Below are positions 45,703-61,717 of a DNA stretch of 64,000 bases, in pieces. The notes beneath the pieces are model-generated. The model was not told the DNA's origin, did no database searches, and saw only the letters and a program-made list of their open reading frames with translations. The stretch is from Azospirillum thermophilum (GTDB lineage Bacteria > Pseudomonadota > Alphaproteobacteria > Azospirillales > Azospirillaceae), in NCBI RefSeq assembly GCF_003130795.1, contig NZ_CP029352.1, forward strand, positions 547,001-611,000, read 5' to 3'. Each line of letters starts with the position of its first letter. Within the stretch, counting starts at the first letter, position 1. The position numbers were made by a program, and so were the translations under genes.

Positions 45703-45795
45703 GGTTGCGAATCCCCCTGGGAAGTATTTTGCTTGTTGCATTGGCGGATACCACAAGGCCGGGTCCCGCCGCCACGGTTTTGTATCCGCTGGAGC

Positions 45796-46482
45796 CTATT
45801 CCTGTATACGGTCGCCGCCCATGATCGACACGAACTCCGTGAAGATGTCGATCTGGATGGTGACGTGACGGCGCATCGCCTGATAGGCGCGCTCCGGATC
45901 GCCGGCCAGCACCGCCTCCACCACGGCGTCATGCTCGACGAAGCTGTCGTCGACGCGGGCGGGGTGGTTCAACTGGTACCGCCGGTAGGGGGCGAGGCGG
46001 ACGAACAGGCTGCGCGCGATCTCCTGCAGCGGCTCGTTGTGGCTGCCGGCCTGCAGCGCCTCGTGGAAGGCGCGGTTCAGGGCATAGTAGGCGTCGAGGT
46101 CGCGGGCCCGCATGTGGGCCTTCGACTCCTCGTGGATGCGCTTCAGCGCCTGCTTCTCCTCCTCCGACATGCGGCGGGCGGCGTAGCGGCAGCACAGCCC
46201 CTCGATCTCCGACATCACCTCGAACATCTGCACCATGCGGTGCAGCTTCAGCGGCGCGACCACCGCGCCGTGGCGCGGCTGCTTCTCCACCAGCCCGGCA
46301 TGGACGAGCTGCAGGATCGCCTCGCGGATCGGCGTGCGGGAGATGTTGAAGCGCTGCGCCAGACTCTCCTCGTCCAGGCGGCTGCCGGGGCGCAGGCGGC
46401 CGAGGAAGATGTCCTCCTCGATGGCGAGCCGAACCTCGTCGGCACGGGTGGCGCCCTTCCTGTCGGGCTGGTGGTCCGGCAT
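45796..46482 (-). CDS. GntR-family (FadR/FCD subgroup) regulator
   Basis: 228-aa repressor-type protein with a winged helix ([40 protein letters not shown]) and an FCD ligand domain with metal-binding type histidines ([33 protein letters not shown]). It is divergent from the acyl-CoA dehydrogenase and co-directional with matB. It could act as a MatR-like malonate regulator or as a regulator of branched-chain acyl-CoA oxidation. A palindrome at 46565-46578 between it and the dehydrogenase gene is its most likely site. Confidence 0.88.
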
Positions 46483-46564
46483 CAGCACTCTTGTCTTTCC
46501 CTTCCTCGATCCCTGTCCGATCCCGTCGGACCATCTGGTGCGGCCACGTTCGGGACACAACTCG

Positions 46565-46578
46565 ATACGGTTCCGTAT
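46565..46578. promoter_or_regulatory. Palindromic operator candidate ATACGG-TT-CCGTAT
   Basis: A 6-bp perfect inverted repeat with 2-bp spacer, 99 bp upstream of the acyl-CoA dehydrogenase ATG and 83 bp upstream of the GntR start. A nearly identical 14-mer (ATACGGTACCGTAC) lies upstream of the isovaleryl-CoA dehydrogenase gene at 61828-61841. Confidence 0.6.
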
Positions 46579-46676
46579 ACAAAGATTGGACAGGCAGTAT
46601 GCGTTGTGCTAGGCCTGAACGCCAAGAAAGAACGCGGGGGCGCGCTCGCGACGCCCCGAGCCCTGGGGAGAAAACC

Positions 46677-47816
46677 ATGGATTTCACGCTGTCCGAGGAT
46701 CGGCAGGCCTTCCGCGACGCCGCGCGCGACTTCGCCGTGAACGAGATGGCGCCGCAGGCGGCCCGCTGGGACGAGGAGTCGGTCTTCCCGGTGGAGACGC
46801 TGCGCCAGGCGGCGGCCCTGGGCTTCGCCGGCATCTATGTGCGCGAGGACGTCGGCGGGTCGGGGCTCGGCCGCCTCGACGCCGCGGTGATCTTCGAGGA
46901 ACTGGCCGCCGCCTGCCCGTCCACCGCCGCCTACATCTCCATCCACAACATGGCGTCGTGGATGATCGACCGGTTCGGCAGCGACGAGCAGCGCCGCCGC
47001 TGGCTGCCCGACCTGACCGGCATGACCCGCTTCGCCAGCTATTGCCTGACCGAGCCGGGGGCGGGATCCGACGCGGCCTCGCTGCGCACCCGGGCGGAGC
47101 GCGACGGCGACCATTACGTGCTGAACGGCTCCAAGGCTTTCATCTCCGGCGGCGGCACCTCGGACGTCTATGTCTGCATGGTGCGCACCGGCGAGGCGGG
47201 GCCAAAGGGCATCTCCTGCCTCGTGGTGGAAAAGGACACGCCCGGCCTGTCCTTCGGCAAGCAGGAGCACAAGCTCGGCTGGAAGAGCCAGCCGACCGCC
47301 GCGGTGATCTTCGAGAACTGCCGCGTCCCGGTGGCCAACCGCATCGGCGCCGAGGGCGAGGGCTTCTCCATCGCCATGAAGGGGCTGGACGGCGGGCGTC
47401 TGAACATTGCCGCCTGCTCGGTCGGCGGCGCCCGCTTCTGTCTGGAGCAGGCGATCGCCTACACGGCCGAGCGCAAGCAGTTCGGCAAGCCGCTGAACGC
47501 CTTCCAGGCCCTGCAGTTCAAGCTGGCCGACATGGCGACGGAGCTGGAGGCGGCACGGCTGATGCTGCACCGCGCGGCGGTCAGCCTGGACAACGGCTCG
47601 CCCGATGCCACGATGCACTGCGCGATGGCCAAGCGCTTCGCCACCGACGTCGGCTTCCAGGTGGTGAACGAGGCGCTGCAGCTCCACGGCGGCTACGGCT
47701 ACATCAGGGAATATCCGATCGAGCGGATTTTCCGCGACCTGCGGGTGCACCAGATCCTGGAGGGCACCAACGAGATCATGCGCGTCATCATCGCGCGCAA
47801 GCTGACCGGCGGTTGA
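46677..47816 (+). CDS. Acyl-CoA dehydrogenase, isobutyryl-CoA dehydrogenase-like
   Basis: 379-aa FAD enzyme. Standard acyl-CoA dehydrogenase motifs are present: [60 protein letters not shown] and [17 protein letters not shown]. The catalytic glutamate lies in LEGTNEIM. Co-directional placement 61 bp before 3-hydroxyisobutyrate dehydrogenase suggests valine catabolism, isobutyryl-CoA to methacrylyl-CoA. The start ATG at 46677 follows GGGGAGAAAACC. Substrate is inferred from context. Confidence 0.87.
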
Positions 47817-47877
47817 TCGCGCCGCCCGGTCCCGCTGGCCTGCATACAACGACAAGACCACACAAGGGGGAAACGCC

Positions 47878-48846
47878 ATGGCGACCATCGCCTTCATCGG
47901 ACTCGGCAACATGGGTGGCCCGATGGCCGGCAACCTGCTGAAGGCCGGCCACGCCGTCCGCGGCTTCGACCTGTCGGAGGCCGCCTGCGCCGCCGCGAAG
48001 GAGGCGGGCGCCACCATCGCCGGCAGCCCGGGCGACGCCGCCAAGGGTGCCGAGGTGGTCGTCACCATGCTGCCGAGCGGCGCCCATGTCCGCCAGGTCT
48101 ACACCGGCGAGGGCGGGGTGATCGCCTCCGCCGGTCCCGGCAGCCTGTTCATCGACAGCTCGACCATCGACGTCGCCTCCGCCCGCGCGGTGGCCGAGGC
48201 CGCCACGGCGGCCGGCCACGTCATGGTGGACGCCCCGGTGTCGGGCGGCGTCGGCGGGGCCGCGGCCGGCACCCTGACCTTCATGGTCGGCGGCAGCGAC
48301 GCGGCCTTCCAGCGGGCCGAGCCCTTCCTGCAGGTGATGGGCAAGACCATCGTCCACGCCGGCGCCGCCGGCGCCGGGCAGGCCGCGAAGATCTGCAACA
48401 ACATGATCCTCGGCATCTCGATGATCGCGGTGTCGGAAGCCTTCGCGCTGGCCGAGAAGCTGGGCCTCGACGCGCAGAAGCTGTTCGACATCTCGTCGAA
48501 GTCGTCGGGCCAGTGCTGGTCGCTGACCAGCTATTGCCCGGTTCCCGGCCCGGTGCCGGCCAGCCCGGCCAACCGCGACTACCAGCCGGGCTTCGCCGCC
48601 GCAATGATGCTGAAGGACCTGAAGCTGGCGGTCGAGGCCGGCCAGACCTCCGGCGCCTCGCTGCCGCTGGGGGCCGAGGCGGCGCAGCTCTACTCGCTGT
48701 TCTGCAACGCCGGCAACGGCGGCATGGACTTCTCCGGCATCGTCACCATGCTGCGCGGAAGGTCTGACGCGGATCGGCCGGGGAGGGGGCTCGCGGGTTC
48801 CTCCCCGGTCCGTCATAGGAGCCGCAAAATCGGATCGCGGCTGTAG
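47878..48846 (+). CDS. mmsB: 3-hydroxyisobutyrate dehydrogenase, C-terminus altered by a frameshift
   Basis: NAD-dependent dehydrogenase of valine catabolism that oxidises 3-hydroxyisobutyrate to methylmalonate semialdehyde. Rossmann motif IAFIGLGNMGGPMAGNLLKA (residues 4-23), substrate motif MVDAPVSGGVGGAAAGTL, catalytic lysine in GQAAKICNNMILGISMIA. The family normally ends DFSGIVxxLRGK. Here GDFSG-type sequence is followed by LRGRSDAD and 24 unrelated residues to 48846. Adding one G at 48757-48758 gives LRGKV and a stop at 48765-48767 (about 296 aa), the normal end. The extra tail then overlaps the antisense vapC and is probably not real. Confidence 0.88.
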   Translation: MATIAFIGLGNMGGPMAGNLLKAGHAVRGFDLSEAACAAAKEAGATIAGSPGDAAKGAEVVVTMLPSGAHVRQVYTGEGGVIASAGPGSLFIDSSTIDVASARAVAEAATAAGHVMVDAPVSGGVGGAAAGTLTFMVGGSDAAFQRAEPFLQVMGKTIVHAGAAGAGQAAKICNNMILGISMIAVSEAFALAEKLGLDAQKLFDISSKSSGQCWSLTSYCPVPGPVPASPANRDYQPGFAAAMMLKDLKLAVEAGQTSGASLPLGAEAAQLYSLFCNAGNGGMDFSGIVTMLRGRSDADRPGRGLAGSSPVRHRSRKIGSRL

Positions 48847-49310
48847 TCGTCGTCCCAACTGTCGGGATCGAAGGGATTGACCAGCAAAACGCCGAGGGCG
48901 CGGAAATCGCCGAGGTTCCTGGTAGCGACAGCATAGCCTTTGACCAGGGCGGTTGCGGCGATCACCTTGTCCCCGTCCCGCAAGGACGGGAAGCGGACGG
49001 AGATTTCCGCCCACTTGTCGGCCACGGCGACGTCGATCGGGAGGATCCGGTCGGCGAAGCTGTCCGTCAGTTCCCTGTACCACGCCGTCTTGAACGCCAG
49101 CCTGTCCAGGTTCCGGGCCCTGACCCTGGGATCCTTGTCCCTGGCGGCCGTCTGCTCCAGCAGAGCGAGGCCACGACGCATCTCCGCCACCGTGATGGCG
49201 CTGAGATAGACGAGGCCCGCATAGCGTTGCAGCCACTCCGCGACCGGGGAACTGCCGGCCGTCGGGTTGGACACGATGTTGGTGTCGGCGATGTATCCGG
49301 GAATCGCCAT
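48813..49310 (-). CDS. vapC: PIN-domain ribonuclease toxin (VapC/FitB-like)
   Basis: 165-aa PIN-domain toxin, slightly longer than most VapC proteins. Conserved acidic residues appear in GYIADTNIVSNPTAG (first Asp), AITVAEMRRGLALL (Glu), and SLRDGDKVIAATALVKGYAV followed by ATRNLGDFRALGV (last Asp residues). It would cleave RNA, in known cases tRNA or rRNA, when freed from its antitoxin. It starts 7 bp after the antitoxin stop. Its last 34 bases overlap the apparent frameshifted tail of mmsB on the other strand. Confidence 0.88.
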   Translation of the reverse strand: MAIPGYIADTNIVSNPTAGSSPVAEWLQRYAGLVYLSAITVAEMRRGLALLEQTAARDKDPRVRARNLDRLAFKTAWYRELTDSFADRILPIDVAVADKWAEISVRFPSLRDGDKVIAATALVKGYAVATRNLGDFRALGVLLVNPFDPDSWDDDYSRDPILRLL

Positions 49311-49317
49311 GCCGGCC

Positions 49318-49599
49318 TCAACCGGCGACCCGGTGCTGGTCCGCCCTGTCCTCCCGCTCCTCCCCGCTCTCCAGCTCGGCGGTCATGCCTGCCAGTTCCT
49401 CGGCTGAAAAGGGCGAGGAGGTAAGCAGCCGGGAGAAGTTCGTTTCCGCCTGCCGGACCAGCCTCCGGTAATCGTCGGCCGAGAGCATCACTGCCACCGG
49501 TTCCCTGTGACGCATGATCACCTGGGGCCCCTGTTCCACGGCCGTCGCCACCAGTTGGGTGAATTGCTGCTTGGCATCGGCCGTCTGCCACTGTGCCAT
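49318..49599 (-). CDS. Phd/YefM-family antitoxin
   Basis: 93-aa antitoxin. The N-terminus follows the Phd/YefM pattern (ADAKQQFTQLVATAVEQGPQ, VIMRHREPVAVMLSADDYRR). The C-terminal half, rich in Glu and Arg, would wrap and block the PIN toxin encoded next. The ATG at 49597-49599 has GGAGGTG upstream. A 17-bp palindrome 22 bp upstream is the likely autoregulatory site. Confidence 0.87.
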   Translation of the reverse strand: MAQWQTADAKQQFTQLVATAVEQGPQVIMRHREPVAVMLSADDYRRLVRQAETNFSRLLTSSPFSAEELAGMTAELESGEEREDRADQHRVAG

Positions 49600-49620
49600 G
49601 TCGCACCTCCGCTTTCATTT

Positions 49621-49637
49621 ATGTCCATAATGGACAT
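49621..49637. promoter_or_regulatory. Toxin-antitoxin operator palindrome
   Basis: ATGTCCAT-A-ATGGACAT is a perfect 8-bp inverted repeat with a 1-bp centre, 22 bp upstream of the antitoxin start. Phd/YefM-type operators are of this kind. The partial sequence TCCAT/ATGGA also occurs in the palindrome at 51549-51565. Confidence 0.7.
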
Positions 49638-49775
49638 TGTCGCGCCCGGCATCAAGCGGCGGGCTTGCTGCGCTGGTGTCGGACGAGTGCGAACGGGAGG
49701 AGGCGGGACCATTCTTCCGGCCGGCCTCCGACGCGCGGCTTCCCGCGCGCCGGGGCGCGGTCCGACCGCCGCGGC

Positions 49776-51431
49776 TCAGTCGCTCTGCTGCATCATGATG
49801 GCGTCGGACTCGCGGCCGCGGAAGTGGATGTTGCCGTCGGCGTCGAGGAAGGCCCAGTCGCCGGTCAGGTAATAGCGGCGGCCGTGGCGGAAGCGGCGGG
49901 CGGTGCGCTCGGGGTCGTTGGAATAGGCCTCGAACCAGAAGAGCGGCGAGTGGTCGACGTCGATGGCGATCTCGCCGGCGCCGCCGACCGGCGCCTCCCG
50001 GCCGTCCTGGTCGAGGATCACCACGCGGAATCCCGGCATGGGCCGGCCGAGCGAGCCGTCGCCCGGCTCCTTTCCGCCGTCCGGGTCGTAGCGGTTCATC
50101 ATGAAGATGCCGGTCTCGCGCTGGCCGTACTGGTCGAGCAGCGGGACCCTCACCACGCGGTTGGCCCAGCCGATCAGCTCCGGCGGCAGCGGCTCGCCCA
50201 CCACCGACAGGATGCGCAGGGCGAGCTGGCGCGGGCCGCCTTCCGGGTCGGCGCTGTGCCAGGCGCGGATCTGCGAAGGGGCGGCGGTCAGGTTGGTGAC
50301 TCCGAACTTGGTCAGCACCCGGTAGCCCTGCCGCACGTCGTAGGGGCCGTCGCAGAAGATGGTGGTGCGGCCGAGCAGCAGGGGCCCGACCAGCCCGTAA
50401 TAGGCGCCGTAGGCCCAGCCCGGGTCGGCCATGTTCCAGTAGATGTCGTCGTCGCGCAGGTCGAGGCCGATGCGCATGTACTGCTCGATCCCCGACAGCG
50501 CCTTCACCGGCAGGCAGACGCCCAGCGGCTTCGGCTCCGATTCCGAGGTGTACATCAGGGCGAAGGGGTCGCGGTCGGCATAGCGGGCGACCTCCTCCAG
50601 CGGCGACGCCTCGTGCAGGGCCGACCAGAAGGGCACCGCGTCGGCGCCCGGCCCGAAGGCCTCGTCGCCCTCCACCGTCACCACCGGCCGGGCGTTGTCG
50701 CGCGGCACCTTGCGGCGCAGGAAGCCGTTGGTGACGATGGCGCGGGCATCGCTGTCGGCCAGCCGGTAGGACACGGCGGCCGGTGTGTAGGTGGTGAAGA
50801 GCGGCATGTAGACCCCGCCCAGCCGCCAGATCGCCAGCGCCGCGATCAGCAGCTCCGGCCCCTTGGGCAGCAGCACCGCCACCCTGTCGCCGTGGCCGAC
50901 GCCCAGCCGCCGCAGCACGGCGGCGAAGCGCGCGGAATCATGCTCCAGCCGGGCGAAGCTCAGCTCCGTCGTCTGGCCGGCGACGCTCTCGTGCAGCAGG
51001 GCGGCGCGCGCGCCGTCGGCGCGGGCATGGCGGTCGCACAGCAGGTCGGCGAGCGGGATGGCGTCGCCCTGGTATTCCGGGCGCAGGAAGGCGGTCGGGC
51101 GCACCGCGGCGGCGCCGGACAGGCTCTCCGCCGGCCCGTCGATTCCGTGGCGGGCGGCGGCGATGCGGCCGAGCAGGTCGAGCTCCGGTCCCAGATGGTA
51201 GCGGCGGCTGCGCGGATCCTGGTCGACGAAGCGCTCCCGCGCCAGCGCGGTCAGCAGCCGGTGGGCCGTCGCCTTCGACAGGCCGGTGTCGGTCATCAGG
51301 TCGGCCAGCCGCGCCCCCTCCGCCCCATAGGCCGCGACGGCACGCAGCAGGGCCAGCGCCCGCTCCAGGCTCTGCGTGCCGCCGGGGGAGGAGGCGCTCT
51401 CGCGATAGGCGGTGTCGGTGTCGCTCGTCAT
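49776..51431 (-). CDS. IclR-type HTH fused to a lid-less acyl-CoA synthetase-like domain
   Basis: 551-aa chimera, probably a ligand-sensing regulator. Residues 17-95 are an IclR winged helix (TQSLERALALLRAVAAYGAE, DTGLSKATAHRLLTALARER, RYHLGPELDLLG). Residues 110-551 are an AMP-forming synthetase N-domain (GDRVAVLLPKGPELLIAALA, WNMADPGWAYGAYYGLVGPL, GRPMPGFRVVILD, YYLTGDWAFLDADGNIHFRG). The P-loop is degraded to TSESEPKPLG in place of TSGTTGxPKG, the YGQTE motif is YGQRETG, and the protein stops right after the hinge (GRESDAIMMQQSD). The mobile C-terminal domain with the catalytic lysine is thus missing, and no other frame downstream encodes it. It is divergent from the liv/acyl-CoA synthetase operon. 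I chose the ATG at 51431 because the HTH begins shortly after. Confidence 0.85.
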   Translation of the reverse strand: MTSDTDTAYRESASSPGGTQSLERALALLRAVAAYGAEGARLADLMTDTGLSKATAHRLLTALARERFVDQDPRSRRYHLGPELDLLGRIAAARHGIDGPAESLSGAAAVRPTAFLRPEYQGDAIPLADLLCDRHARADGARAALLHESVAGQTTELSFARLEHDSARFAAVLRRLGVGHGDRVAVLLPKGPELLIAALAIWRLGGVYMPLFTTYTPAAVSYRLADSDARAIVTNGFLRRKVPRDNARPVVTVEGDEAFGPGADAVPFWSALHEASPLEEVARYADRDPFALMYTSESEPKPLGVCLPVKALSGIEQYMRIGLDLRDDDIYWNMADPGWAYGAYYGLVGPLLLGRTTIFCDGPYDVRQGYRVLTKFGVTNLTAAPSQIRAWHSADPEGGPRQLALRILSVVGEPLPPELIGWANRVVRVPLLDQYGQRETGIFMMNRYDPDGGKEPGDGSLGRPMPGFRVVILDQDGREAPVGGAGEIAIDVDHSPLFWFEAYSNDPERTARRFRHGRRYYLTGDWAFLDADGNIHFRGRESDAIMMQQSD

Positions 51432-51440
51432 CGTCTCATA

Positions 51441-51449
51441 ATATGGACC
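51441..51449. promoter_or_regulatory. Half-site ATATGGACC near the IclR-fusion start
   Basis: Same nine bases in the same orientation as the right arm of the palindrome at 51549-51565. The left arm (GTCTCAT, 51433-51439) matches GGTCCAT at four of seven positions. It lies 10 bp upstream of the regulator ATG, fitting autorepression. Confidence 0.5.
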
Positions 51450-51498: not shown

Positions 51499-51526
51499 TT
51501 GATAACAGAGCGATATACGGTATATA
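51499..51526 (+). promoter_or_regulatory. Candidate promoter of the liv/acyl-CoA synthetase operon
   Basis: TTGATA (51499-51504), 16 bp, TATATA (51521-51526). A perfect palindrome ATATAC-G-GTATAT (51513-51525) overlaps the -10. Predicted start is near 51534, about 90 nt before livG. Confidence 0.6.
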
Positions 51527-51548
51527 GTGGCCGCGTTGCTCAGAGGAC

Positions 51549-51565
51549 GGTCCATCATATGGACC
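51549..51565. promoter_or_regulatory. Palindromic operator candidate GGTCCAT-CAT-ATGGACC
   Basis: A perfect 7-bp inverted repeat about 15-30 bp downstream of the predicted operon start. A protein bound here would block transcription. The divergent IclR fusion is the obvious candidate. Confidence 0.65.
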
Positions 51566-51626: not shown

Positions 51627-52505
51627 ATGTCAGGCGCGCCCGTCGCATCGCCACGAGGTTACGCCCAACCGGCCGACGCCGCCCAACCGGAGGTCATCTT
51701 CGAAGCCCGCGGCGTCTCACTGCGCTTTGGCGGCGTGCAGGCCCTGACCGACGTCAGCTTCGGGATCCGCAAGGGAGAGCTGTTCTCCATCATCGGACCG
51801 AACGGCGCCGGCAAGACCTCGATGGTCAACTGCATCTCCGGCCGTTACCGTCCCACCGACGGCAAGGTCTATTTCAAGGGCCGCGACGTCACCGGCATGA
51901 CGCCCAACCACCGGGCGTCGCTGGGCATCGGCCGCACCTTCCAGAATCTGGCTCTGTTCGGCCACATGACGGTGCTCGACAACATCATGGTCGGGCGCCA
52001 TCACCTGCTGAAGAACAACTTCCTCACCGGCTCGCTCTACTGGCTGACCGGCGCGCGCAAGGAAGAGCTGGCGCACCGCCGCGAGGTCGAGGAGATCATA
52101 GACTTCCTCGAAATCCAGCATGTCCGCAAGGCGACCGCCGGCACCCTCTCCTACGGCCTGCGCAAGCGCGTGGAACTCGCCCGCGCCATCGCGCTGAAGC
52201 CCGACCTGATCCTCCTGGACGAGCCGATGGCCGGCATGAACCTGGAGGAGAAGGAGGACATGGCCCGCTACATCGTCGACCTGAACGAGGAGTGGGGCAT
52301 GACCGTCGTGATGATCGAGCACGACATGGGCGTCGTCATGGACATCTCGCACCGCGTCATGGTGCTGGAGTTCGGCAAGAAGATCGCCGAGGGCGCGCCG
52401 GAAGAGGTGCTGGCCGATCCGCGGGTCCGCCGCGCCTATCTGGGCGAGGACGACGAGGAAGACACCACCCCCGTCCAACCCGCCCCCCGCCAGGAGGTCG
52501 CGTGA
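51627..52505 (+). CDS. livG: Liv-type ABC transporter ATP-binding protein LivG
   Basis: 292-aa ABC ATPase of the hydrophobic/branched-chain amino acid family. Walker A IIGPNGAGKTSMVNCISG (near residue 56), LivG-specific GIGRTFQNLALFGHMTVLDN, signature TLSYGLRKRVELARAIALKP, Walker B LILLDEPMAGMNLEEKEDMA and MIEHDMGVVMDISHRV. An N-terminal extension of about 20 residues precedes the domain. It is first in the operon and overlaps the next start by one base (TGATG). The transport substrate is more likely an organic acid than an amino acid, given the neighbours. Confidence 0.93.
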   Translation: MSGAPVASPRGYAQPADAAQPEVIFEARGVSLRFGGVQALTDVSFGIRKGELFSIIGPNGAGKTSMVNCISGRYRPTDGKVYFKGRDVTGMTPNHRASLGIGRTFQNLALFGHMTVLDNIMVGRHHLLKNNFLTGSLYWLTGARKEELAHRREVEEIIDFLEIQHVRKATAGTLSYGLRKRVELARAIALKPDLILLDEPMAGMNLEEKEDMARYIVDLNEEWGMTVVMIEHDMGVVMDISHRVMVLEFGKKIAEGAPEEVLADPRVRRAYLGEDDEEDTTPVQPAPRQEVA

Positions 52506-54448
52506 TGGCTTCCGCATCCAACCTGCCCGACCTGTCCGTCCACGACACGCTGCCCAAGCTGCTGTCGCTGCACGCCAGGCAGCACCCCAACGACGTCGCG
52601 CTGCGCGAGAAGGACTTCGGCATCTGGAAGCCGCTGACCTGGGCGCAGTATCACGCCCGCGTCCGCGCCTTCGCGCTCGGCCTCCTGAAGATGGGGGTGG
52701 TGCGCGGCGAGGTGGTCGGCCTGCTCGGCGACAACCGCCCGGACTGGGTGGGCGGCGAGGTCGCCTCCCATGCCATCGGCGCCATGAGCCTCGGCATCTA
52801 CCGCGACGCTCTGGACGAGGAGGTCGCCTACCTCATCACCTACGCCGACGTGAAGGTCGTCTTCGCCGAGGACGAGGAGCAGGTGGACAAGCTGCTGAAC
52901 CTGGGCGAGCGCCTGCCCACGCTGCAGCACATCATCTATTCCGACCCGCGCGGCATGCGCAAATACCACGACCCGCGCCTGATGCCGGTCACCGACCTGA
53001 TCGCGCTGGGCGAGGAGCTGCACGCCGCCCAGCCGGACCTCTACGAGGATCTGGTCGGCCAGACCCGCGGCGAGGACGTGGCGGTGCTCTGCACCACCTC
53101 GGGCACCACCTCCAACCCGAAGATGGCGATGCTGCCGGCCGGGCGCCTGCTGCGCCATTGCGCCAGCTACCTGTCGGTCGATCCCAAGGGGCCGGAGGAC
53201 GAGTATGTCTCGGTCCTGCCGCTGTCCTGGATCATGGAGCAGGTCTATGCGGTCGGCATGGCGATGCTCTCGCGCATGCGCGTGAACTTCGTCGAGGAAG
53301 CCGAGACGATGATGCACGACTTCCGCGAGATCGGGCCCAGCTTCGTGCTGTTCGCCCCGCGCCTGTGGGAGGCCATCGCCGCCGACGTGCGCGCCCGCAT
53401 CATGGACGCCTCGCCCTTCAAGCAGAAGATGTTCGACCTCGGCATGAAGCTGGGGCTGGAGGCTCTGGCGCAGGGCCGGCGATCCTGGGTGGCCGACCAG
53501 ATCCTGTTCCGCCCGCTGCGCGACCGGCTGGGCTTCACCAACCTGAGGTCGGCGGCGACCGGCGGTGCCGCCCTCGGTCCCGACACCTTCAAGTTCTTCC
53601 AGGCGCTCGGCGTTCCGCTGCGCCAGATCTACGGCCAGACCGAGACGATGGGCGCCTACACCGTCCATCGCGGCGACGACGTCGACTTCGACACGGTCGG
53701 CGTGCCGTTCGACGGCGGCATCGAGGTGAAGGTGATCGACCCCGACCACAACGGCGTCGGCGAGATCGTCACCCGCCACCCCAACATGTTCGCCGGCTAT
53801 TACCGGAACGAGAAGGCCACCGTCGCCGACATGCGCGACGGCTGGATGCACACCGGCGATGCCGGCTTCTTCGACAAGAAGGGCCATCTGGTCATCATCG
53901 ACCGCATCAAGGACATCGCCACCACCGCCAACGGCGACCGCTTCAGCCCGCAGTACATCGAGAACAAGCTGAAGTTCAGCCCCTATGTCGCCGAGGCGGT
54001 GATCCTGGGCGACAAGCGGCCCTACCTGTCGGCCATCGTCTGCATCCGCTTCTCCATCGTGTCGAAGTGGGCGGAGAAGAACCGCATCGCCTTCACCACC
54101 TATTCCGACCTGTCCTCCAAGCCCGAGGTCTACGAACTGCTGCGGGCGGAGGTGGAGAAGGTCAACGCGACGCTGCCGGAATACCAGCGCATCTCGAAGT
54201 TCCTGCTGCTCTACAAGGAGCTGGACGCCGACGACGGCGAGCTGACCCGCACCCGCAAGGTGCGCCGCGGCGTCATCTCCGAGAAGTACGGCACCATCAT
54301 CGACGCGATCTACGACGACAAGCCGAAGATCGACGTCGACACCACCATCACCTTCCAGGACGGCACCAAGCAGCGCATCCGCACGACGCTGACCGTGATC
54401 GACCTGCTGCCGACCAAGGCCGCGACGGCCGAGCCGGTCGCCGCGTGA
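52505..54448 (+). CDS. Long-type AMP-forming acyl-CoA synthetase
   Basis: 647-aa synthetase of the FAA1/long-chain type. The P-loop is VLCTTSGTTSNPKMAMLPAG (near residue 200). Other motifs are IYGQTETMGAYTVH, GWMHTGDAGFFDKKGHLVII, and DRIKDIATTANGDRFSPQYI. A C-terminal domain follows, with LTRTRKVRRGVISEKY supplying the lysine region. It likely activates the acid imported by the transporter, since it is placed between livG and livH. The chain length or aromatic nature of the substrate cannot be read from the sequence. Confidence 0.88.
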   Translation: MASASNLPDLSVHDTLPKLLSLHARQHPNDVALREKDFGIWKPLTWAQYHARVRAFALGLLKMGVVRGEVVGLLGDNRPDWVGGEVASHAIGAMSLGIYRDALDEEVAYLITYADVKVVFAEDEEQVDKLLNLGERLPTLQHIIYSDPRGMRKYHDPRLMPVTDLIALGEELHAAQPDLYEDLVGQTRGEDVAVLCTTSGTTSNPKMAMLPAGRLLRHCASYLSVDPKGPEDEYVSVLPLSWIMEQVYAVGMAMLSRMRVNFVEEAETMMHDFREIGPSFVLFAPRLWEAIAADVRARIMDASPFKQKMFDLGMKLGLEALAQGRRSWVADQILFRPLRDRLGFTNLRSAATGGAALGPDTFKFFQALGVPLRQIYGQTETMGAYTVHRGDDVDFDTVGVPFDGGIEVKVIDPDHNGVGEIVTRHPNMFAGYYRNEKATVADMRDGWMHTGDAGFFDKKGHLVIIDRIKDIATTANGDRFSPQYIENKLKFSPYVAEAVILGDKRPYLSAIVCIRFSIVSKWAEKNRIAFTTYSDLSSKPEVYELLRAEVEKVNATLPEYQRISKFLLLYKELDADDGELTRTRKVRRGVISEKYGTIIDAIYDDKPKIDVDTTITFQDGTKQRIRTTLTVIDLLPTKAATAEPVAA

Positions 54449-54550: not shown

Positions 54551-55438
54551 ATGACCCTGTTCTTCCAGCTTCTCGTGAACGGACTGATCGTCGGGGCGCT
54601 GTACGGCGTCGTCGCGATGTCCTTCGTCCTGATCTACAAGGCCAGCCGCATCGTGAACTTCGCCCAGGGCGAGTTCCTGCTGATCGGCGCCTGGACCTGC
54701 TGGTGGCTGCTGACCAAGTTCCAGATTCCCTTCTACCTGGGTTTCCCCATCACGCTGGTCTTCATGCTGATCTTCGGCGTGGTGCTGCAGGTGGTGGTGC
54801 TGCGCCCGATGATCGGCGAGCCGATCATCTCCGTCATCATGGTCACGATCGGCCTGTCGATCGTCTTCCAGGCGATGATGAAGTGGATGTTCGGCGTGTT
54901 CGCCAAGCCCTTCCCGCCGATCTTCGCCAGCCCGACCGTCAACGTGCTGGGGCTGGAGGTGCAGACGGTCTACGTCGTCTCGCTGGCGATCTCGATATTG
55001 ATCATGGCGGGCTTCGGCTGGTTCTTCAAATACTCGCGCCTCGGCCTCGCCATGCGGGCGACCGCCTTCGACCAGCAGGTGGCCCAGTCGCTCGGCATCT
55101 CGGTCCGCCAGATGTTCGCCATGAGCTGGGCGATCTCCGCCATGGTCTCCGCGGTGGCGGGCGTGGTGGTCGGCGTGGTCAACGGCGTGTCCTCGGCGCT
55201 CTCCTTCTTCGGCATCAAGGTCTTCCCGGCGGTCATCCTCGGCGGCCTCGACAGCGTCATCGGCGCGGTGCTGGGCGGCCTGATCGTCGGCGTGCTGGAG
55301 AACCTGGCGCACTATGTCGACAGCCAGTGGCTGAACTTCGGCAACATGTACGAGATCGCGCCCTTCTACGTCCTGATCATCATCCTGATGATCAAGCCGT
55401 ACGGCCTGTTCGGCACCAAGGACATCGAGCGCGTGTAA
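54551..55438 (+). CDS. livH: Liv-type ABC transporter permease LivH
   Basis: 295-aa inner-membrane permease with about eight hydrophobic segments. Family blocks: NGLIVGALYGVVAMSFVLIY, IVNFAQGEFLLIGAWTCWW, VLRPMIGEPIISVIMVTIGL and GGLDSVIGAVLGGLIVGVLE. The preceding 102-bp gap contains a C-run/G-run inverted repeat (CCCTCTTCCC with GGGGGGAGGGG, near 54510-54530). It is 13 bp before livM. Confidence 0.93.
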   Translation: MTLFFQLLVNGLIVGALYGVVAMSFVLIYKASRIVNFAQGEFLLIGAWTCWWLLTKFQIPFYLGFPITLVFMLIFGVVLQVVVLRPMIGEPIISVIMVTIGLSIVFQAMMKWMFGVFAKPFPPIFASPTVNVLGLEVQTVYVVSLAISILIMAGFGWFFKYSRLGLAMRATAFDQQVAQSLGISVRQMFAMSWAISAMVSAVAGVVVGVVNGVSSALSFFGIKVFPAVILGGLDSVIGAVLGGLIVGVLENLAHYVDSQWLNFGNMYEIAPFYVLIIILMIKPYGLFGTKDIERV

Positions 55439-55451
55439 GGAGGCCGCACCC

Positions 55452-56524
55452 ATGGCGAACGCAAGCATCATCCCGTGCGGCGACTTCAAGACGAGCTACG
55501 CCGCCGACACCACCGTCTTCCCGACCACCACCAGCCGCAACTTCGCCATCCTCGGCATCATCCTGCTGCTGGCGGCCCCGGCCTTCATGGACCGCTACTG
55601 GCTGAACCTGCTGATCCAGATCGGCTATCTCGGCATCGCGGCGCTGGGCCTGAACATCCTGGTCGGCTTCACCGGCCAGATCTCGATCGGCCATTCCGCC
55701 TTCTTCGGCTTCGGCGCCTTCGCCTCGGCCTGGCTGAACAACAGCCTGGGCATCCCGGTGGTGCTGGCGATCCCGCTGGCCGGCGTGGTGACCACCGTGG
55801 TCGGGCTGATCTTCGGCATGCCGGCCGCCCGGCTGAAGGGCCTCTACCTCGCCATCGCGACGCTGGCGGCGCAGTACATCCTGCAGGACTTCTTCTCGCG
55901 CGCCGACTGGTTCACCGGCGGCACCAACGGCACCATCGCCGAGGCGCTGACCATCTTCGGCTTCGCCTTCGACACGGACGAGCGCTACTTCTACGTGGTG
56001 CTGGTGGCGATGGTGGTGATGTACCTGCTGGCCACCAACCTGATGCGGACCCGCGACGGCCGCGCCCTGGTGGCGGTGCGCGACCACTACCTGTCCGCCG
56101 AGATCATGGGCATCAACCTGACGAAGTACCGGACGATGTCCTTCGGCATCTCCGCCTTCTATGCCGGCATCGGCGGCGCTCTCTACGCCCACTACCTGCA
56201 GTTCGTCTCGGTGGAGGGCTTCACCATCCTCTTCTCGATCCAGTTCCTCGGCATGATCATCATCGGGGGCTGGGGTCGATCATGGGCACGCTGATGGGCA
56301 CCGCCTTCATGGTCCTCCTGCCCGAGGCCATGCAGGCCGCGACCAAGCTGGTCAGCGGCACGTCCATCGATACCGCGCTGAACCTGAAGGAGAACATCGC
56401 CTTCCTGCGCGAGATGTCGATCGGCATCGTCATCATCCTCTTCCTGGTGTTCGAGCCCGACGGGCTGGCCCACCGCTGGAAGCAGATCAAGGCCTACTGG
56501 AAGCTCTACCCGTTCTCGCACTGA
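55452..56524 (+). pseudogene. livM: Liv-type ABC transporter permease LivM, frameshifted near 56270
   Basis: The first frame encodes most of LivM (LLIQIGYLGIAALGLNILVG, FTGQISIGHSAFFGFGAFAS, RDHYLSAEIMGINLTKYRTM, SFGISAFYAGIGGALYAHYL) up to FLGMIIIGG. The rest (SIMGTLMGTAFMVLLPEAMQ, EMSIGIVIILFLVFEPDGLA) lies one frame back. Adding one C in GGGGGCTGGGG gives the conserved GGLGSIMG and a 357-aa protein. All other genes of the operon are intact, so this is more likely a sequencing error than decay. Confidence 0.88.
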
Positions 56525-56570: not shown

Positions 56571-57851
56571 ATGACGCTGAAGACCGCGCTGTTCGCGACG
56601 GCCGCCCTGATCGCCGCCACCGGCGCCGCCTCCGCCCAGTCGATCCCGGTCGGCCATCTCGCCGACCAGTCGGGCGCCACCTCGGACGTGGGCGTGCCCT
56701 ATGCCCAGGGCGTCGCGGACGCGCTGGCCTACATCAACGCCAAGGGCGGCGTGAACGGTACCAAGCTGGCGGTCGACACGGTCGACTACGGCTATCAGGC
56801 GCCGCGCGCCATCAGCCAGTACAAGAAGTGGTCGTCGGGCAGCGACAAGATCGCAGCACTCCAGGGCTGGGGCACCGCCGACACCGAGGCGCTGACCGGC
56901 TTCGTCGGCAAGGACGAGATCCCCGCCTATTCCGGCTCCTACTCCGGGCACCTGACCGACCCGACCGGCAAGGGCACCCACGGCTCCAAGCCGGCCCCCT
57001 ACAACTTCTTCTACGGCCCGTCCTACTCCGACGCGCTGCGCGGCATGCTGATGTGGGCGGCCGAGGACTGGAAGAAGAAGGGCGGCCAGGGCAAGCCGAA
57101 ATACGTCCACATGGGCGCCAACCACCCCTATCCGAACGCCCCGAAGGAGGCCGGCGAGGCACTGGCCAAGGAACTGGGCTTCGACGTGCTGCCGGCCGTG
57201 CAGTTCGCCCTGACCCCCGGCGACTACACCGCCCAGTGCCTGACGCTGAAGGAGGCGGGCGCCAACTACGCCTATCTCGGCAACACCGCCGGCTCCAACA
57301 TCTCGGTGCTGAAGGCCTGCCAGACGGTCGGCGCCAAGGTGCAGTTCATGGGCAACGTCTGGGGCATGGACGAGAACGCGGCGAAGGCCGCCGGCGCCGC
57401 CGCCGACGGCGTCGTCTTCCCGCTGCGCACCGCCGTCACCTGGTCGGGCGAGGCGCAGGGCATGAAGACCATGCAGGAGATCTCGAAGATCTCCGACGCG
57501 GCCGGCACCGCCTACCGCCCGGTGCATTACCTGGCCGGCGTCTGCACCGCCTTCTACATGAAGGAGGCGATGGACTGGGCGGCGAAGAACGGCGGCGTCA
57601 CCGGCCCGGGCATCCGCAAGGGCATGTACCAGAAGAAGGACTGGGTGCCGGCCGGGCTGGAGGGCGTCTGCGTGCCGTCCACCTGGACCGAGACCGACCA
57701 CCGCGGCATGACGGCGGTCAACATCTACCGCGCCTCGGTCAAGGGCGACACCGGCGCCAATGTGGACGAGCTGGTGAAGGCCGGCACGATCAAGCTGGAG
57801 AAGATCGCCACCGTCGACGTCCCGCGCAAGCCGGAATGGCTGGGCTGGTAA
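56571..57851 (+). CDS. livK: Liv-type ABC transporter substrate-binding protein
   Basis: 426-aa periplasmic binding protein. Signal peptide residues 1-23 (cleavage ASA-QS). The mature part has SIPVGHLADQSGATSDVGVP, YAQGVADALAYINAKGGVNG, and VQFALTPGDYTAQCLTLKEA. It belongs to the branch of type I binding proteins often found beside acyl-CoA ligases and aromatic acid genes rather than the classical leucine binders, an inference from neighbours and general pattern. It is preceded by GGGAGAAACGCACC. Confidence 0.9.
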   Translation: MTLKTALFATAALIAATGAASAQSIPVGHLADQSGATSDVGVPYAQGVADALAYINAKGGVNGTKLAVDTVDYGYQAPRAISQYKKWSSGSDKIAALQGWGTADTEALTGFVGKDEIPAYSGSYSGHLTDPTGKGTHGSKPAPYNFFYGPSYSDALRGMLMWAAEDWKKKGGQGKPKYVHMGANHPYPNAPKEAGEALAKELGFDVLPAVQFALTPGDYTAQCLTLKEAGANYAYLGNTAGSNISVLKACQTVGAKVQFMGNVWGMDENAAKAAGAAADGVVFPLRTAVTWSGEAQGMKTMQEISKISDAAGTAYRPVHYLAGVCTAFYMKEAMDWAAKNGGVTGPGIRKGMYQKKDWVPAGLEGVCVPSTWTETDHRGMTAVNIYRASVKGDTGANVDELVKAGTIKLEKIATVDVPRKPEWLGW

Positions 57852-57921: not shown

Positions 57922-58779
57922 ATGCTGAACGCCGCCACGGCCACTCCCGCCCAACAGGTCAACGGCGCCCCGCCGGTCGCCCCGGCCAAGCGCACGCTGC
58001 TTTCCGTCAACAACATCGAGGTCGTCTACAACGACGTGATCCTCGTGCTCCGCGGGCTCAGCCTGGAGGTGCCGGAGGGCGAGATCGTGGCCCTGCTGGG
58101 CGCCAACGGCGCCGGCAAGTCCACGACGCTCAAGGCGATCTCCGGCCTGCTGAAGACGGAGGACGGCGAGGTCACCCGCGGCGACATCACCTTCGCCGGC
58201 GAGCGGATCAACGGCATCGACCCGGACAGCATCGTCCGCAAGGGCATCTTCCAGGTGATGGAGGGTCGCCGGATCATCGGCGACATGACCTGCCTGGAGA
58301 ACCTGCGCCTGGGCGCCTTCACCCGCCGCGACAACGGCGTGAAGGACGACCTGGACATGGTCTTCCACTATTTCCCCCGCCTGAAGGAACGCACCGGCCT
58401 TGCCGGCTACCTGTCGGGCGGCGAGCAGCAGATGCTCGCCATCGGCCGCGCCATGATGGCCCGCCCGAAGCTGATCCTGATGGACGAGCCGTCCATGGGC
58501 CTGTCGCCGCTGATGGTGAAGGAGGTCTTCGGCATCATCCGGCAGATCAACAAGGACCTGGGCGTCACCATCCTGCTGGTCGAGCAGAACGCCCGCATGG
58601 CCCTGCAGGCGGCCAGCCGCGGCTACATCATGGAAAACGGCAAGGTGGTGCTGGACGGCACGGCCGACGAGCTGCGCAACAACGAGGACGTGAAGGAATT
58701 CTACCTCGGCGGCGGCAACGAAGAGCGCAAGAGCTTCAAGAACCTGAAGAGCTTCAAGCGCCGCAAGCGCTGGATCTGA
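57922..58779 (+). CDS. livF: Liv-type ABC transporter ATP-binding protein LivF
   Basis: 285-aa second ATPase. Walker A LLGANGAGKSTTLKAISGLL (near residue 58), LivF-type GIFQVMEGRRIIGDMTCLEN, signature YLSGGEQQMLAIGRAMMARP, Walker B LILMDEPSMGLSPLMVKEVF and LVEQNARMALQAASRGYIM. It has a roughly 25-residue N-terminal extension and a basic C-terminal tail (FKNLKSFKRRKRWI), longer than usual LivF. It completes the five-gene transporter. Confidence 0.93.
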   Translation: MLNAATATPAQQVNGAPPVAPAKRTLLSVNNIEVVYNDVILVLRGLSLEVPEGEIVALLGANGAGKSTTLKAISGLLKTEDGEVTRGDITFAGERINGIDPDSIVRKGIFQVMEGRRIIGDMTCLENLRLGAFTRRDNGVKDDLDMVFHYFPRLKERTGLAGYLSGGEQQMLAIGRAMMARPKLILMDEPSMGLSPLMVKEVFGIIRQINKDLGVTILLVEQNARMALQAASRGYIMENGKVVLDGTADELRNNEDVKEFYLGGGNEERKSFKNLKSFKRRKRWI

Positions 58780-58904
58780 GCGGGCGCGGCCGCGCGCGGC
58801 CGGTCTCCCCCCCTCCATCCTTGCCGGACTGCCGCCGCAGGGTCCCTGCACGACCCGCAAACGGACGCCTGCAGAACCGACGCCCGCAGAACGGACGAAC
58901 GACC

Positions 58905-60134
58905 ATGACCGACTTCTACGACGACCTCGAGACGCGCTCCCCGGCCCGGCGCGAGGAGGAGCTGTTCGCCGCCCTGCCGGCCCAGCTCGCCCATGCCAAG
59001 GCCAACGCCCCCTATTTCAGCCGCCTGCTGGCGGAGGTCGATCCCGCGTCGGTCCGCGACCGCGCCGGCCTTGCGGCCCTGCCGGTGACCCGCAAGTCCG
59101 ACCTGATCGCCCTGCAGAAGGACGCGCCGCCCTTCGGCGGGCTGGCGGCCCTGCCGGTCGGCCAGCTCGCGCGGGTCTTCGCCTCGCCCGGCCCGATCCA
59201 CGACCCGGAGCCCTACGGCGCCGATCCCTGGCGCAGCGCGCGGGCGCTGTTCGCCGCCGGCTTCCGCAAGGGCGACCTCGCGCAGAACTGCTTCGCCTAC
59301 CACATGACCCCCGCCGGCTCGATGTTCGAGACCGGGGCCCATGCGGTCGGCTGCGCCGTCATCCCGGCCGGCACCGGCAACACCGAGCTGCAGGCCCAGG
59401 TGGTGGCGGCGCTGAAGCCGCGCGGCTACATCGGCACGCCGGACTTCCTGAAGATCATCCTGGAGAAGGCGGACGAGCTGGGGCTCGACAGCGCCTCGCT
59501 GAAGATCGGCAGCGTGTCGGGCGGCCCCTACCTGCCCGACGCCCGCGCCTTCTACGAGGCGCGCGGGCTCGACATCTACCAGTGCTACGGCACCGCCGAC
59601 CTCGGCATCGTCGCCTACGAGACGCCGGCCCGCTCCGGCCTCGTCGTGAACGAGGGGGTGATCGTCGAGATCCTGCGGCCCGGCACCGGCGATCCGGTTC
59701 CCGACGGCGAGGTGGGGGAGGTGGTGGTGACCCTCTTCTCCGAGGCCTATCCGCTGGTCCGCTTCGCCACCGGCGACCTCTCGGCGGTGATGCCCGGCGA
59801 GAGCCCCTGCGGCCGCACCAACGTCCGGCTGCGCGGCTGGCTCGGCCGGGCCGACCAGACGACCAAGGTCAAGGGCATGTTCGTCCACCCCTCGCAGGTG
59901 GCCGAGGTGCTGCGCCGCCACCCGCAGCTTCGCCGGGCGCGGCTGGTGGTCGGGCGGGCCGACGCCAGCGACACCATGACTCTGCGCTGCGAAGCGGAGG
60001 AGGGCGGGGAGGCTTTGGAGGCTGCCGTGCGAGAAACGCTTGCGTCGGTAACAAAATTGCGCGGTACTGTCGAGCTCGTCCCGCCCGGCAGCCTGCCCAA
60101 CGACGGCAAGGTGATCGAGGACGCCCGCGCCTGA
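58905..60134 (+). CDS. Phenylacetate-CoA ligase-like (PaaK family) enzyme
   Basis: 409-aa AMP-binding protein of the PaaK/CapK type. Segments are VTRKSDLIALQKDAPPFGGL, FASPGPIHDPEPYGADPWRS (replacing the usual Ser/Thr/Gly-rich P-loop), CFAYHMTPAGSMFETGAHAV, YQCYGTADLGIVAYE and LRGWLGRADQTTKVKGMFVH. The C-terminal lysine region is in LPNDGKVIEDA. The P-loop departs from classic PaaK (SSGTTGKPT), matching a distinct PaaK-like subgroup. It gives the cluster a second CoA ligase. It is too distant from the paa operon to assign as its phenylacetate ligase with confidence. Confidence 0.85.
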   Translation: MTDFYDDLETRSPARREEELFAALPAQLAHAKANAPYFSRLLAEVDPASVRDRAGLAALPVTRKSDLIALQKDAPPFGGLAALPVGQLARVFASPGPIHDPEPYGADPWRSARALFAAGFRKGDLAQNCFAYHMTPAGSMFETGAHAVGCAVIPAGTGNTELQAQVVAALKPRGYIGTPDFLKIILEKADELGLDSASLKIGSVSGGPYLPDARAFYEARGLDIYQCYGTADLGIVAYETPARSGLVVNEGVIVEILRPGTGDPVPDGEVGEVVVTLFSEAYPLVRFATGDLSAVMPGESPCGRTNVRLRGWLGRADQTTKVKGMFVHPSQVAEVLRRHPQLRRARLVVGRADASDTMTLRCEAEEGGEALEAAVRETLASVTKLRGTVELVPPGSLPNDGKVIEDARA

Positions 60135-60220: not shown

Positions 60221-61717
60221 ATGAGCGCCACCATCGCCCTCCAGCTCGATCCCTTCGCCCTGGCGAAGGAGTTGTCCGGCAAGCAGTTCATCGACGGGGA
60301 GTTCCGCCCCGCCTCCTCCGGCAAGACCTTCCCGGTGATCAACCCCGCCACCGGCGAGGAGGTCGCCCAGGCCGCCTTCGGCGAGGCCGCCGACGTCGAG
60401 GCCGCGGTCGCCGCCGCCGTCAAGGCACAGAAGGAGTGGGCGAAGAGGGGGGCGCGCGAGCGCGGCAAGCTGGTCGCCGCCTGCGGTGCGGCGCTGGGCG
60501 AGCGGGTCGAGGAGCTGGGCCGCCTGCTGGCGCTCGAGACGGGCAAGGCGCTGCGCACCGAATCGCGCGTCGAAGCCGGCGTGCTGGCCGACATGTTCAC
60601 CTTCTTCGGCGGGCTGGCGCCGGAGCTGAAGGGCGAGACCGTGCCTTTCAACCCGACCATGCTGACCATGACGGTGCGCGAGCCGATCGGCGTCGTCGGC
60701 GCCATCATCCCGTGGAACGTGCCGCTCCTGCTGATGGCGATGAAGATCGCCCCGGCGCTGGTCGCCGGCAACGCGGTGGTGGTGAAGTCGGCGGAAGAGG
60801 CGCCGCTGACCGTGCTGCGCGTCATCCAGATCATGAACAGCATCCTGCCGCCGGGGCTGGTCAACATCCTCTCCGGCTTCGGCCCGGAATGCGGCGCGCC
60901 GCTGGTGGCGCACCCGAAGGTCGGCAAGGTGACCTTCACCGGCTCGGTCGAGACCGGCAAGATCGTCTACAGGACCGCCGCCGACAAGCTGATCCCGGTC
61001 ACGCTGGAGCTGGGCGGCAAGAGCCCGATGATCGTCATGGCCGACGCCGATCTCGACCAGGCGATCGGCGGCGCCATCGCCGGCATGCGCTTCACCCGCC
61101 AGGGCCAGAGCTGCACCGCCTCCTCGCGCATCTTCGTCCATGACAGCATCCACGACGTCTTCGTCGAGACGCTGAAGGAGAAGGTGAACGCGCTGAAGAT
61201 GGGCGACCCGCTGGACGAGGCGACCGACATCGGCACCATCGTCTCGCCGCAGCAGATGGACCGGGTGCAGAGCTACATCGCGCTTGGCAAGGAGACGAAG
61301 GGCGCCACCGCCCACGCCCTGTCGGCGATGCCGGCCGACCCGAAGCTGGCCAAGGGGCTGTTCGTGCAGCCGCACCTGTTCACCGGCGTCACCAATGACG
61401 ACCGCATCGCCCGCGAGGAGATCTTCGGCCCGGTCTGCTGCGTCATCCGCTGGACCGATTACGAGGAGGTCATCGCCGCCGCCAACGACAGCGAATACGG
61501 TCTCGCCGCCACGGTGTGGACGCGGGACCTGAAGGTGGCGATGGATGCGGTGCACCGGCTGGAAGCCGGCTTCGTCCAGGTGAACCAGAACCTGGTGGTG
61601 CAGCCCAACCTCAGCTATGGCGGGGTGAAGACCTCCGGCCTCGGCAAGGAGGCCACGCTGGAGTCGATGCTGGAGCACTTCACCCACAAGAAGACCATCA
61701 TCATCAACATGAAGTGA
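60221..61717 (+). CDS. NAD(P)-dependent aldehyde dehydrogenase
   Basis: 498-aa aldehyde dehydrogenase. The catalytic cysteine is in RQGQSCTASSRIF (near residue 300) and the general base glutamate in VTLELGGKSPMIVMADADLD. Cofactor-binding segments are IIPWNVPLLLMAMKIAPALV and TFTGSVETGKIVYR, and the end motif is LEHFTHKKTIIINMK. It probably oxidises an aldehyde to the acid that the CoA ligases then activate. It ends at a good terminator, so it is probably the last gene of the operon. The start ATG at 60221 follows AAGGACAC. Confidence 0.92.
   Translation: MSATIALQLDPFALAKELSGKQFIDGEFRPASSGKTFPVINPATGEEVAQAAFGEAADVEAAVAAAVKAQKEWAKRGARERGKLVAACGAALGERVEELGRLLALETGKALRTESRVEAGVLADMFTFFGGLAPELKGETVPFNPTMLTMTVREPIGVVGAIIPWNVPLLLMAMKIAPALVAGNAVVVKSAEEAPLTVLRVIQIMNSILPPGLVNILSGFGPECGAPLVAHPKVGKVTFTGSVETGKIVYRTAADKLIPVTLELGGKSPMIVMADADLDQAIGGAIAGMRFTRQGQSCTASSRIFVHDSIHDVFVETLKEKVNALKMGDPLDEATDIGTIVSPQQMDRVQSYIALGKETKGATAHALSAMPADPKLAKGLFVQPHLFTGVTNDDRIAREEIFGPVCCVIRWTDYEEVIAAANDSEYGLAATVWTRDLKVAMDAVHRLEAGFVQVNQNLVVQPNLSYGGVKTSGLGKEATLESMLEHFTHKKTIIINMK

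Follow-up and report, generated by a model that had tools for sequence, protein, structure and literature searches.

The window analysed here, a 64,000-nucleotide stretch of the Azospirillum thermophilum genome (contig NZ_CP029352.1, positions 547,001 to 611,000 of the forward strand), carries at 49776..51431 on the minus strand an open reading frame without a stop that encodes a 551-amino acid protein, in which an IclR-type winged helix is joined to a degenerate N-terminal domain of the ANL fold. The gene, whose product we call the regulator, faces a divergent operon of transporter, CoA ligase and aldehyde dehydrogenase genes across a region with two operator-like palindromes, and is homologous to AMK58_RS23190 (WP_035679353.1) of A. 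brasilense Sp7, which is annotated "AMP-binding protein". Pfam places an HTH_IclR domain (PF09339, 1.1e-13) at residues 21-73 (51213..51371, minus strand) and an AMP-binding domain (the ANL N-terminal domain, 8.5e-62) at residues 133-490 (49962..51035, minus strand). At an E-value of 0.001 Pfam found neither an IclR effector domain nor AMP-binding_C, the C-terminal part being AMP-binding, and the only further match was a sub-threshold helix-turn-helix (HTH). A preliminary description of this DNA had proposed an IclR head on an AMP-binding domain with no effector domain, and the domain searches agree.

Structural comparisons are consistent with this make-up. The predicted structure of the regulator has a winged helix and a linker helix at residues 82-95, and by the structural model the ANL part spans approximately residues 110-546; an AlphaFold model built from close homologues alone reached a pLDDT of 46 and was set aside. 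The solved chains nearest to the head are IclR regulators (PDB 5tjj and 3r4k, with TtgV, 2xrn, weaker). For the remainder, acetate/acyl-CoA ligases are the closest of the curated enzyme families, at 265 bits against a cut-off of 729, and the next best ANL match in the same genome is 33% identical to the regulator. The Brucella canis acyl-CoA synthetase 5u2a has the same N-terminal fold and acyl-pocket motif as the ANL domain.

We compared the catalytic motifs in an alignment of 40 distinct fusions, comprising the window protein, 38 further sequences from Azospirillum and Arenibaculum and one from another family (genome G355); duplicates, a copy with an internal stop (L063/L076), a copy at a contig edge (L068/L072) and the fragments L084 and L085 were omitted. 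The A3 phosphate loop, residues 294-304 (50520..50552, minus strand), reads YTSESEPKPLG where relatives presumed to be active have TSGTTGxPKG or something close, so that the pattern [ST]SGT[TS]GxPKG is unmatched at TSESEPKPLG. Two glycines and the lysine of the loop are lost and two acidic residues are gained, in keeping with the broken P-loop described earlier. The lysine is missing from all 40 fusions, and E297 and L303, which replace a glycine and the lysine, are invariant in the 39 distinct Azospirillum/Arenibaculum sequences. At the A5 motif (residues 435-439, 50115..50129, minus strand), where enzymes of the class read YGQTE, the regulator reads YGQRE within YGQRETG, again as had been noted, and the A5 glutamate is retained. 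The protein stops 11 residues past the hinge GR (GRESDAIMMQQSD), while enzymes run for about 100 residues more to LPKTPSGK or a similar motif. A lid domain hidden by a frameshift was considered and rejected, since a tblastn search of window positions 46001-49800 with an enzyme C-terminal domain gave a best E-value of 5.2 and none was seen. The other Azospirillum copies stop at this position or a few residues from it, and that of Arenibaculum extends 24 residues further in sequence that is not a lid. The earlier claim that the protein is lid-less and ends at the hinge stands for the window protein, but it is not general, since the G355 fusion keeps a lid that lacks the lysine motif.

In contrast to these lesions, the acyl-pocket stretch (residues 331-363, 50343..50441, minus strand) closely resembles that of the presumed active relatives (WNxADPGWAYGxYY) and is the most conserved part of the protein, with a mean identity of 98.7-99.1% over residues 326-375 across 39 sequences. 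The adenine- and ribose-side residues GEP, TGD and GR are each present in 39-40 of the 40 fusions. In the alphaproteobacterial relatives L090-L098 and in 5u2a the loop reads TSGT(T/V/A)G and the lysine is present, and L090-L098 also keep the C-terminal domain, ending LPKTPSGK (5u2a was aligned over the N-domain alone). Judged by its motifs, the regulator combines a DNA-binding head with a CoA-ligase fold that lacks the catalytic parts, and its ANL domain is predicted to have lost activity.

The regulator was found as one copy in 42 of 45 genomes of the genus, our own included, and in 43 of 82 genomes of the family, the one extra carrier belonging to a sister genus; the remaining 36 family genomes outside the genus had no match at E ≤ 1e-65. 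Named carriers include A. brasilense Sp7, A. lipoferum, A. oryzae and Arenibaculum pallidiluteum. The draw at the order level returned the same 82 genomes. Outside Azospirillum, G355 alone among 385 genomes of the class carried a fusion (E ≤ 1e-70; a second search at E ≤ 1e-115 covered the same genomes), no other was found in 39 genomes of its family and 43 of its order, and 398 genomes of the phylum held none except our own (E ≤ 1e-85). The other matches listed in these searches start at query residue 96 or later and so do not reach the HTH. The genomes drawn are a sample, and at most three candidates per genome were scored in the class and phylum searches, so rarer fusions could have been missed. 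Of 71 plasmid records that matched (40 of them listed), 14 align over 80% or more of the query; 13 of these are from Azospirillum and extend into the HTH, one of them from residue 36, and 10 of the 13 are annotated "AMP-binding protein", while the fourteenth, from Streptomyces, begins at residue 89.

No internal stop is present in 41 of the 42 genus matches. Two copies (G026 and G044), whose matches begin at residues 105-106, seemed to lack the HTH, which was present once the reading frames were re-extracted, and the late start in G041 (L068) reflects a contig edge. The ratio of nonsynonymous to synonymous polymorphism (pN/pS) was 0.03-0.35 in nine pairs over residues 20-551. We conclude that the regulator is a real gene on which purifying selection acts and whose lesions recur in the carriers from the genus and one sister genus.

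The region between the regulator and the operon contains two sites of a 17-bp palindrome with the consensus GGTCCAT-N3-ATGGACC. O1 (GTCTCATAATATGGACC, 51433..51449, no strand) lies 1 nt from the regulator start codon and has three mismatches in the window and none in most other species; O2 (GGTCCATCATATGGACC, 51549..51565, no strand) is a perfect 7+3+7 dyad that lies 116 bp from O1 and ends 61 bp before livG. Across 39 distinct upstream regions, both sites occur with at most three mismatches in 38, and the spacing is 116 bp in 33, 117 in four and 118 in one. Markov-shuffled regions reached two mismatches or fewer in 1 of 1950 cases. The O1 dyad pairs at 7/7 positions in 31 of the 39 regions, and that of O2 at 6/7 in 37 and 7/7 in two. 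A genome-wide search with the exact pattern GGTCCAYNNNRTGGACC found it in 43 of the 45 genus genomes, against 3 of 45 for the reversed control, and among the matches listed (to G034) most fall at the regulator locus. In G030, a draft assembly of more than 1000 contigs, both sites still fit the pattern. Directly upstream of O2 and pointing at livG is a putative sigma-70 promoter, TTGATA-18-TATAGT (51499..51528, plus strand), of which TTGAWA is shared by all 12 species aligned and TATAGT by 7 of 11 that are readable. In 37 of the 39 regions O1 has a start-codon CAT at a distance of 1-5 nt (its reading frame was not checked in each). With O2 past the putative promoter and O1 at the regulator start, the placement suggests repression of both genes, and since 116 bp corresponds to about 11 helical turns, looping would be possible.

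The three genus genomes without the regulator also lack the pair before livG. Two of them, G014 and G029, have no exact-pattern match anywhere, the third (G032) has one on another contig, and in none of the three is there a site with four mismatches or fewer within 400 bp before livG. In G014 (L107) and G029 (L108), livG lies directly behind acyl-CoA dehydrogenase and 3-hydroxyisobutyrate dehydrogenase genes, and these loci look as if the regulator and both sites had been deleted together and the operons joined. The upstream region of G032 (L109) is different, and its 400 bp before livG hold another palindrome (GTACGGTACCGTACGG-like), which suggests a different regulator.

The operon on the plus strand begins with the ABC ATPase gene livG (51627..52505), followed by a FadD-like long-chain acyl-CoA ligase (52511..54448, start codon provisional), the permeases livH (54551..55438) and livM (55452..56524, frameshifted near 56275), a Liv-type periplasmic substrate-binding protein (Peripla_BP_6, 56571..57851), the ABC ATPase livF (57922..58779), a PaaK-like CoA ligase (58869..60134) and an aldehyde dehydrogenase (60221..61717). 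This is the gene content given in the preliminary description, and the order is the same in A. brasilense Sp7, whose 357-residue LivM matches one frame of the window over residues 1-275 and another over residues 273-357; the preliminary description did not mention this frameshift. Solved relatives of the PaaK-like ligase include phenylacetate-CoA ligases and 2-hydroxyisobutyryl-CoA synthetase; those of the substrate-binding protein are weak and generic. The operon presumably imports a compound through the Liv-type transporter, and an aromatic or branched short acid would be no more than a guess, given the tannase/feruloyl-esterase-family gene beside the G355 fusion. A check proposed earlier was whether homologues of the domain pair stay next to liv and acyl-CoA ligase genes; livG, fadD and livH do adjoin the regulator in 37 of 38 loci, some species being counted twice, and the 38th stops at a contig edge, but the G355 fusion stands beside the tannase-family gene instead.

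On the other side of the regulator, valine-type genes were considered as part of the regulon but not included in it; flanking matches are present in 12 of 38 loci for a 3-hydroxyisobutyrate dehydrogenase and in 14 of 38 for an acyl-CoA dehydrogenase (two at only 38-40% identity), even though such genes stand directly before livG in G014 and G029. A PIN-domain (VapC-like) gene at 48813-49310 lies between the 3-hydroxyisobutyrate dehydrogenase gene and the regulator and overlaps the 3′ end of the former. Within 44158-48846 a malonyl-CoA synthase gene (NCBIfam PRK07514, above cut-off) stands beside an FCD-type GntR regulator, followed on the opposite strand by the acyl-CoA dehydrogenase and 3-hydroxyisobutyrate dehydrogenase genes.

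The G355 fusion is 52% identical to the regulator and 645-673 amino acids long depending on the start, with the Pfam domains HTH_IclR, AMP-binding and AMP-binding_C. Its A3 loop is LAGTTNSPRG, and its lid reads LPWALQRVTRPE at the position of the enzyme LPKTPSGK, so that the catalytic lysine motif is absent. Within L110 (5221-12007) the gene faces one of the tannase/feruloyl-esterase family (Pfam) and is followed by genes that by eye resemble a nitrate/sulfonate-type ABC transporter. The gap between the tannase-family gene and the fusion, 304 bp from a TTG start or 334 from an ATG, contains two sites of the palindrome with two mismatches each, 138 bp apart, which are the only ones with three mismatches or fewer in 18 kb. 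Among 20000 shuffled gaps, none had two sites and 34 had one or more. A similar site at 52% protein identity and beside a different neighbour would tie the site to the protein rather than to the operon.

When 10 fusions were placed in a tree with 15 enzymes, computed from the ANL part alone, they formed one clade (100/100), indicating that fusion probably occurred once. The clade adjoins the class enzymes L090-L098 with support of 94/91, below the level starred in the tree and with several long paralogue branches. Because it keeps a lid without the catalytic lysine, the G355 homologue looks like an intermediate, and the lysine may have been lost before the fusion or soon after it, with the lid deleted later in the Azospirillum line. 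The regulator had been described as an enzyme fold reused as the sensor for its own pathway, but a tie to its own pathway is not shown by these results: the tree and 5u2a place the sensor domain nearest to another acyl-CoA synthetase subfamily, from other Alphaproteobacteria, neither ligase of the operon appears in the 21 own-genome matches to the regulator (E ≤ 0.001), the operon FadD being 24% identical, and the G355 fusion faces a tannase-family gene.

Our preferred reading, to which we assign a probability of roughly 0.7, is that the regulator arose from an acyl-CoA synthetase and is now a dedicated one-component repressor, autoregulated and responsive to a ligand that a dead ANL-fold domain senses. 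We infer that the protein binds DNA, that it represses and does not activate, that looping takes place, that activity is lost, and what the ligand is. The winged helix would bind the two palindromes, probably as a dimer, and through O1 at its own start and O2 past the putative liv promoter would repress the gene that encodes it together with the liv/CoA-ligase/aldehyde-dehydrogenase operon; a DNA loop of 11 turns may be involved. No acyl-adenylate or acyl-CoA would be produced by the ANL domain, which by keeping the carboxylic-acid pocket and the adenine- and ribose-side residues would serve as the ligand sensor; when an acid of the pathway, its adenylate or another derivative is bound, the DNA would be released. 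ATP binding is disfavoured by the two lost glycines, the lost lysine and the two acidic residues gained in the loop. In ANL enzymes half of the CoA tunnel is formed by the lid, and acyl-CoA is therefore a disfavoured ligand for the Azospirillum form, which has none. Free acid or acyl-adenylate would best suit the retained residues. More tentatively, this may be the first dedicated one-component regulator on a CoA-ligase fold, one that uses the retained pocket, adenine- and ribose-side residues and A5 glutamate to capture free acid or acyl-adenylate released by the operon's own ligases. A dead relative of the enzyme that activates the substrate would then let the cell gauge this activation step, and G355 would preserve the step before deletion of the lid.

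Several observations weigh against a repressor of this kind. The copy in G030 (L063, L076) has an internal TAA, and R438 of the A5 motif, present in 37 of 40 fusions, is not universal. Only one clear site is present in L074, and in L073 one arm alone is changed. Several genus genomes have one further match to the pattern away from this locus, so that the regulon may exceed it. The liv promoter is a consensus match alone, and its TATAGT is missing in 4 of the 11 readable species. In the window itself O1 carries three mismatches and livM a frameshift, which is either a sequencing error or a broken permease, and this genome may therefore represent the system poorly. IclR-headed regulators also include activators, and the protein could activate the liv operon, or act as a dual regulator, from O1, which is upstream of the putative liv promoter and usually the more perfect dyad, with O2 secondary. 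We consider this unlikely, as O2 just past the putative promoter and a CAT 1-5 nt from O1 are typical repressor positions, and the persistence of the operon behind other genes in G014 and G029, where regulator and sites are gone, would better suit lost repression than a lost activator.

The loss of the catalytic loop and lid would also suit an ANL domain that senses no small molecule and is a structural module for dimerisation or for a partner protein, making the regulator constitutive or protein-controlled; with the acyl-pocket stretch the most conserved part and near to the presumed active relatives, and GEP, TGD and GR kept almost throughout, we find this improbable. The retained adenine- and ribose-side motifs and A5 glutamate would permit a working or half-working DNA-binding enzyme with an acyl-adenylate as co-effector, a principle known from BirA, a biotin ligase and repressor that pairs an HTH with an active adenylate-forming enzyme of a fold unrelated to ANL. 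The altered phosphate loop, the missing C-terminal domain of the window protein and the G355 lid that lacks the lysine motif make such an enzyme very improbable. Finally, the internal stop in 1 of 42 genus copies might point to a decaying fusion pseudogene or to an assembly or frameshift artefact, to which we give almost no credence, because the conservation already contradicts it: the other 41 copies are uninterrupted, the late starts are resolved or fall at a contig edge, pN/pS is low in all nine pairs, no lid lies downstream and the palindrome pair is conserved.

Three states can be compared here within one bacterial class, namely an ordinary synthetase, a lid without the catalytic lysine (G355) and a deleted lid (Azospirillum), with an operator-like site that is kept while the neighbouring gene differs. 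Regulators may also be found among the proteins annotated "AMP-binding protein", and a sensor scaffold would become available from the large CoA-ligase superfamily, which has pockets for many acids.

The available part of one report presents the origin of regulators from enzymes that gained a DNA-binding domain and lost activity as a widely held idea with few experimental approaches (PMC3602430). Such proteins are already known. In the available parts of the reports, BzdR and BoxR combine an XRE helix-turn-helix with a shikimate-kinase-like sensor of benzoyl-CoA, and as is predicted for the regulator they join an inactive enzyme fold to a DNA-binding domain at a CoA-dependent catabolic operon (PMC3602430, PMC6449761, PMC6079105). 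FadD1 of Pseudomonas aeruginosa, a receptor for cis-2-decenoic acid, is also an ANL-fold protein and, according to the available part of its report, a CoA ligase that binds both the acid and promoter DNA; as described there, FadD1 has ligase activity and both AMP-binding domains, and what is credited with contacting DNA is not an HTH but a leucine-zipper-like stretch within the AMP-binding domain (PMC12754631). The regulator, by comparison, has an IclR head and is predicted to be inactive. The preliminary description knew of no regulator of this architecture, which holds in part: an enzyme fold used as a sensor has precedents in these proteins, but a dedicated regulator on a CoA-ligase fold was not found in the open literature, and no IclR plus AMP-binding regulator was found described in open-licence PMC papers, as judged by titles and the starts of abstracts and with subscription papers outside the search. 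With the IclR family the regulator shares the winged-helix head but, by Pfam, not the effector domain, and with 5u2a and L090-L098 it shares the N-terminal fold and acyl-pocket motif but not their intact loop lysine. It is BzdR-like in that a DNA-binding domain is joined to an enzyme domain without catalytic residues. The palindromes, as candidate operators, adjoin the gene in 38 of the 39 regions; they are absent before livG in the three genomes without it. It differs from BzdR and BoxR in its DNA-binding family (IclR rather than XRE) and its enzyme fold (AMP-binding rather than shikimate-kinase-like), in having the very fold of a CoA ligase as its sensor, and in the existence of an intermediate-like homologue in G355.
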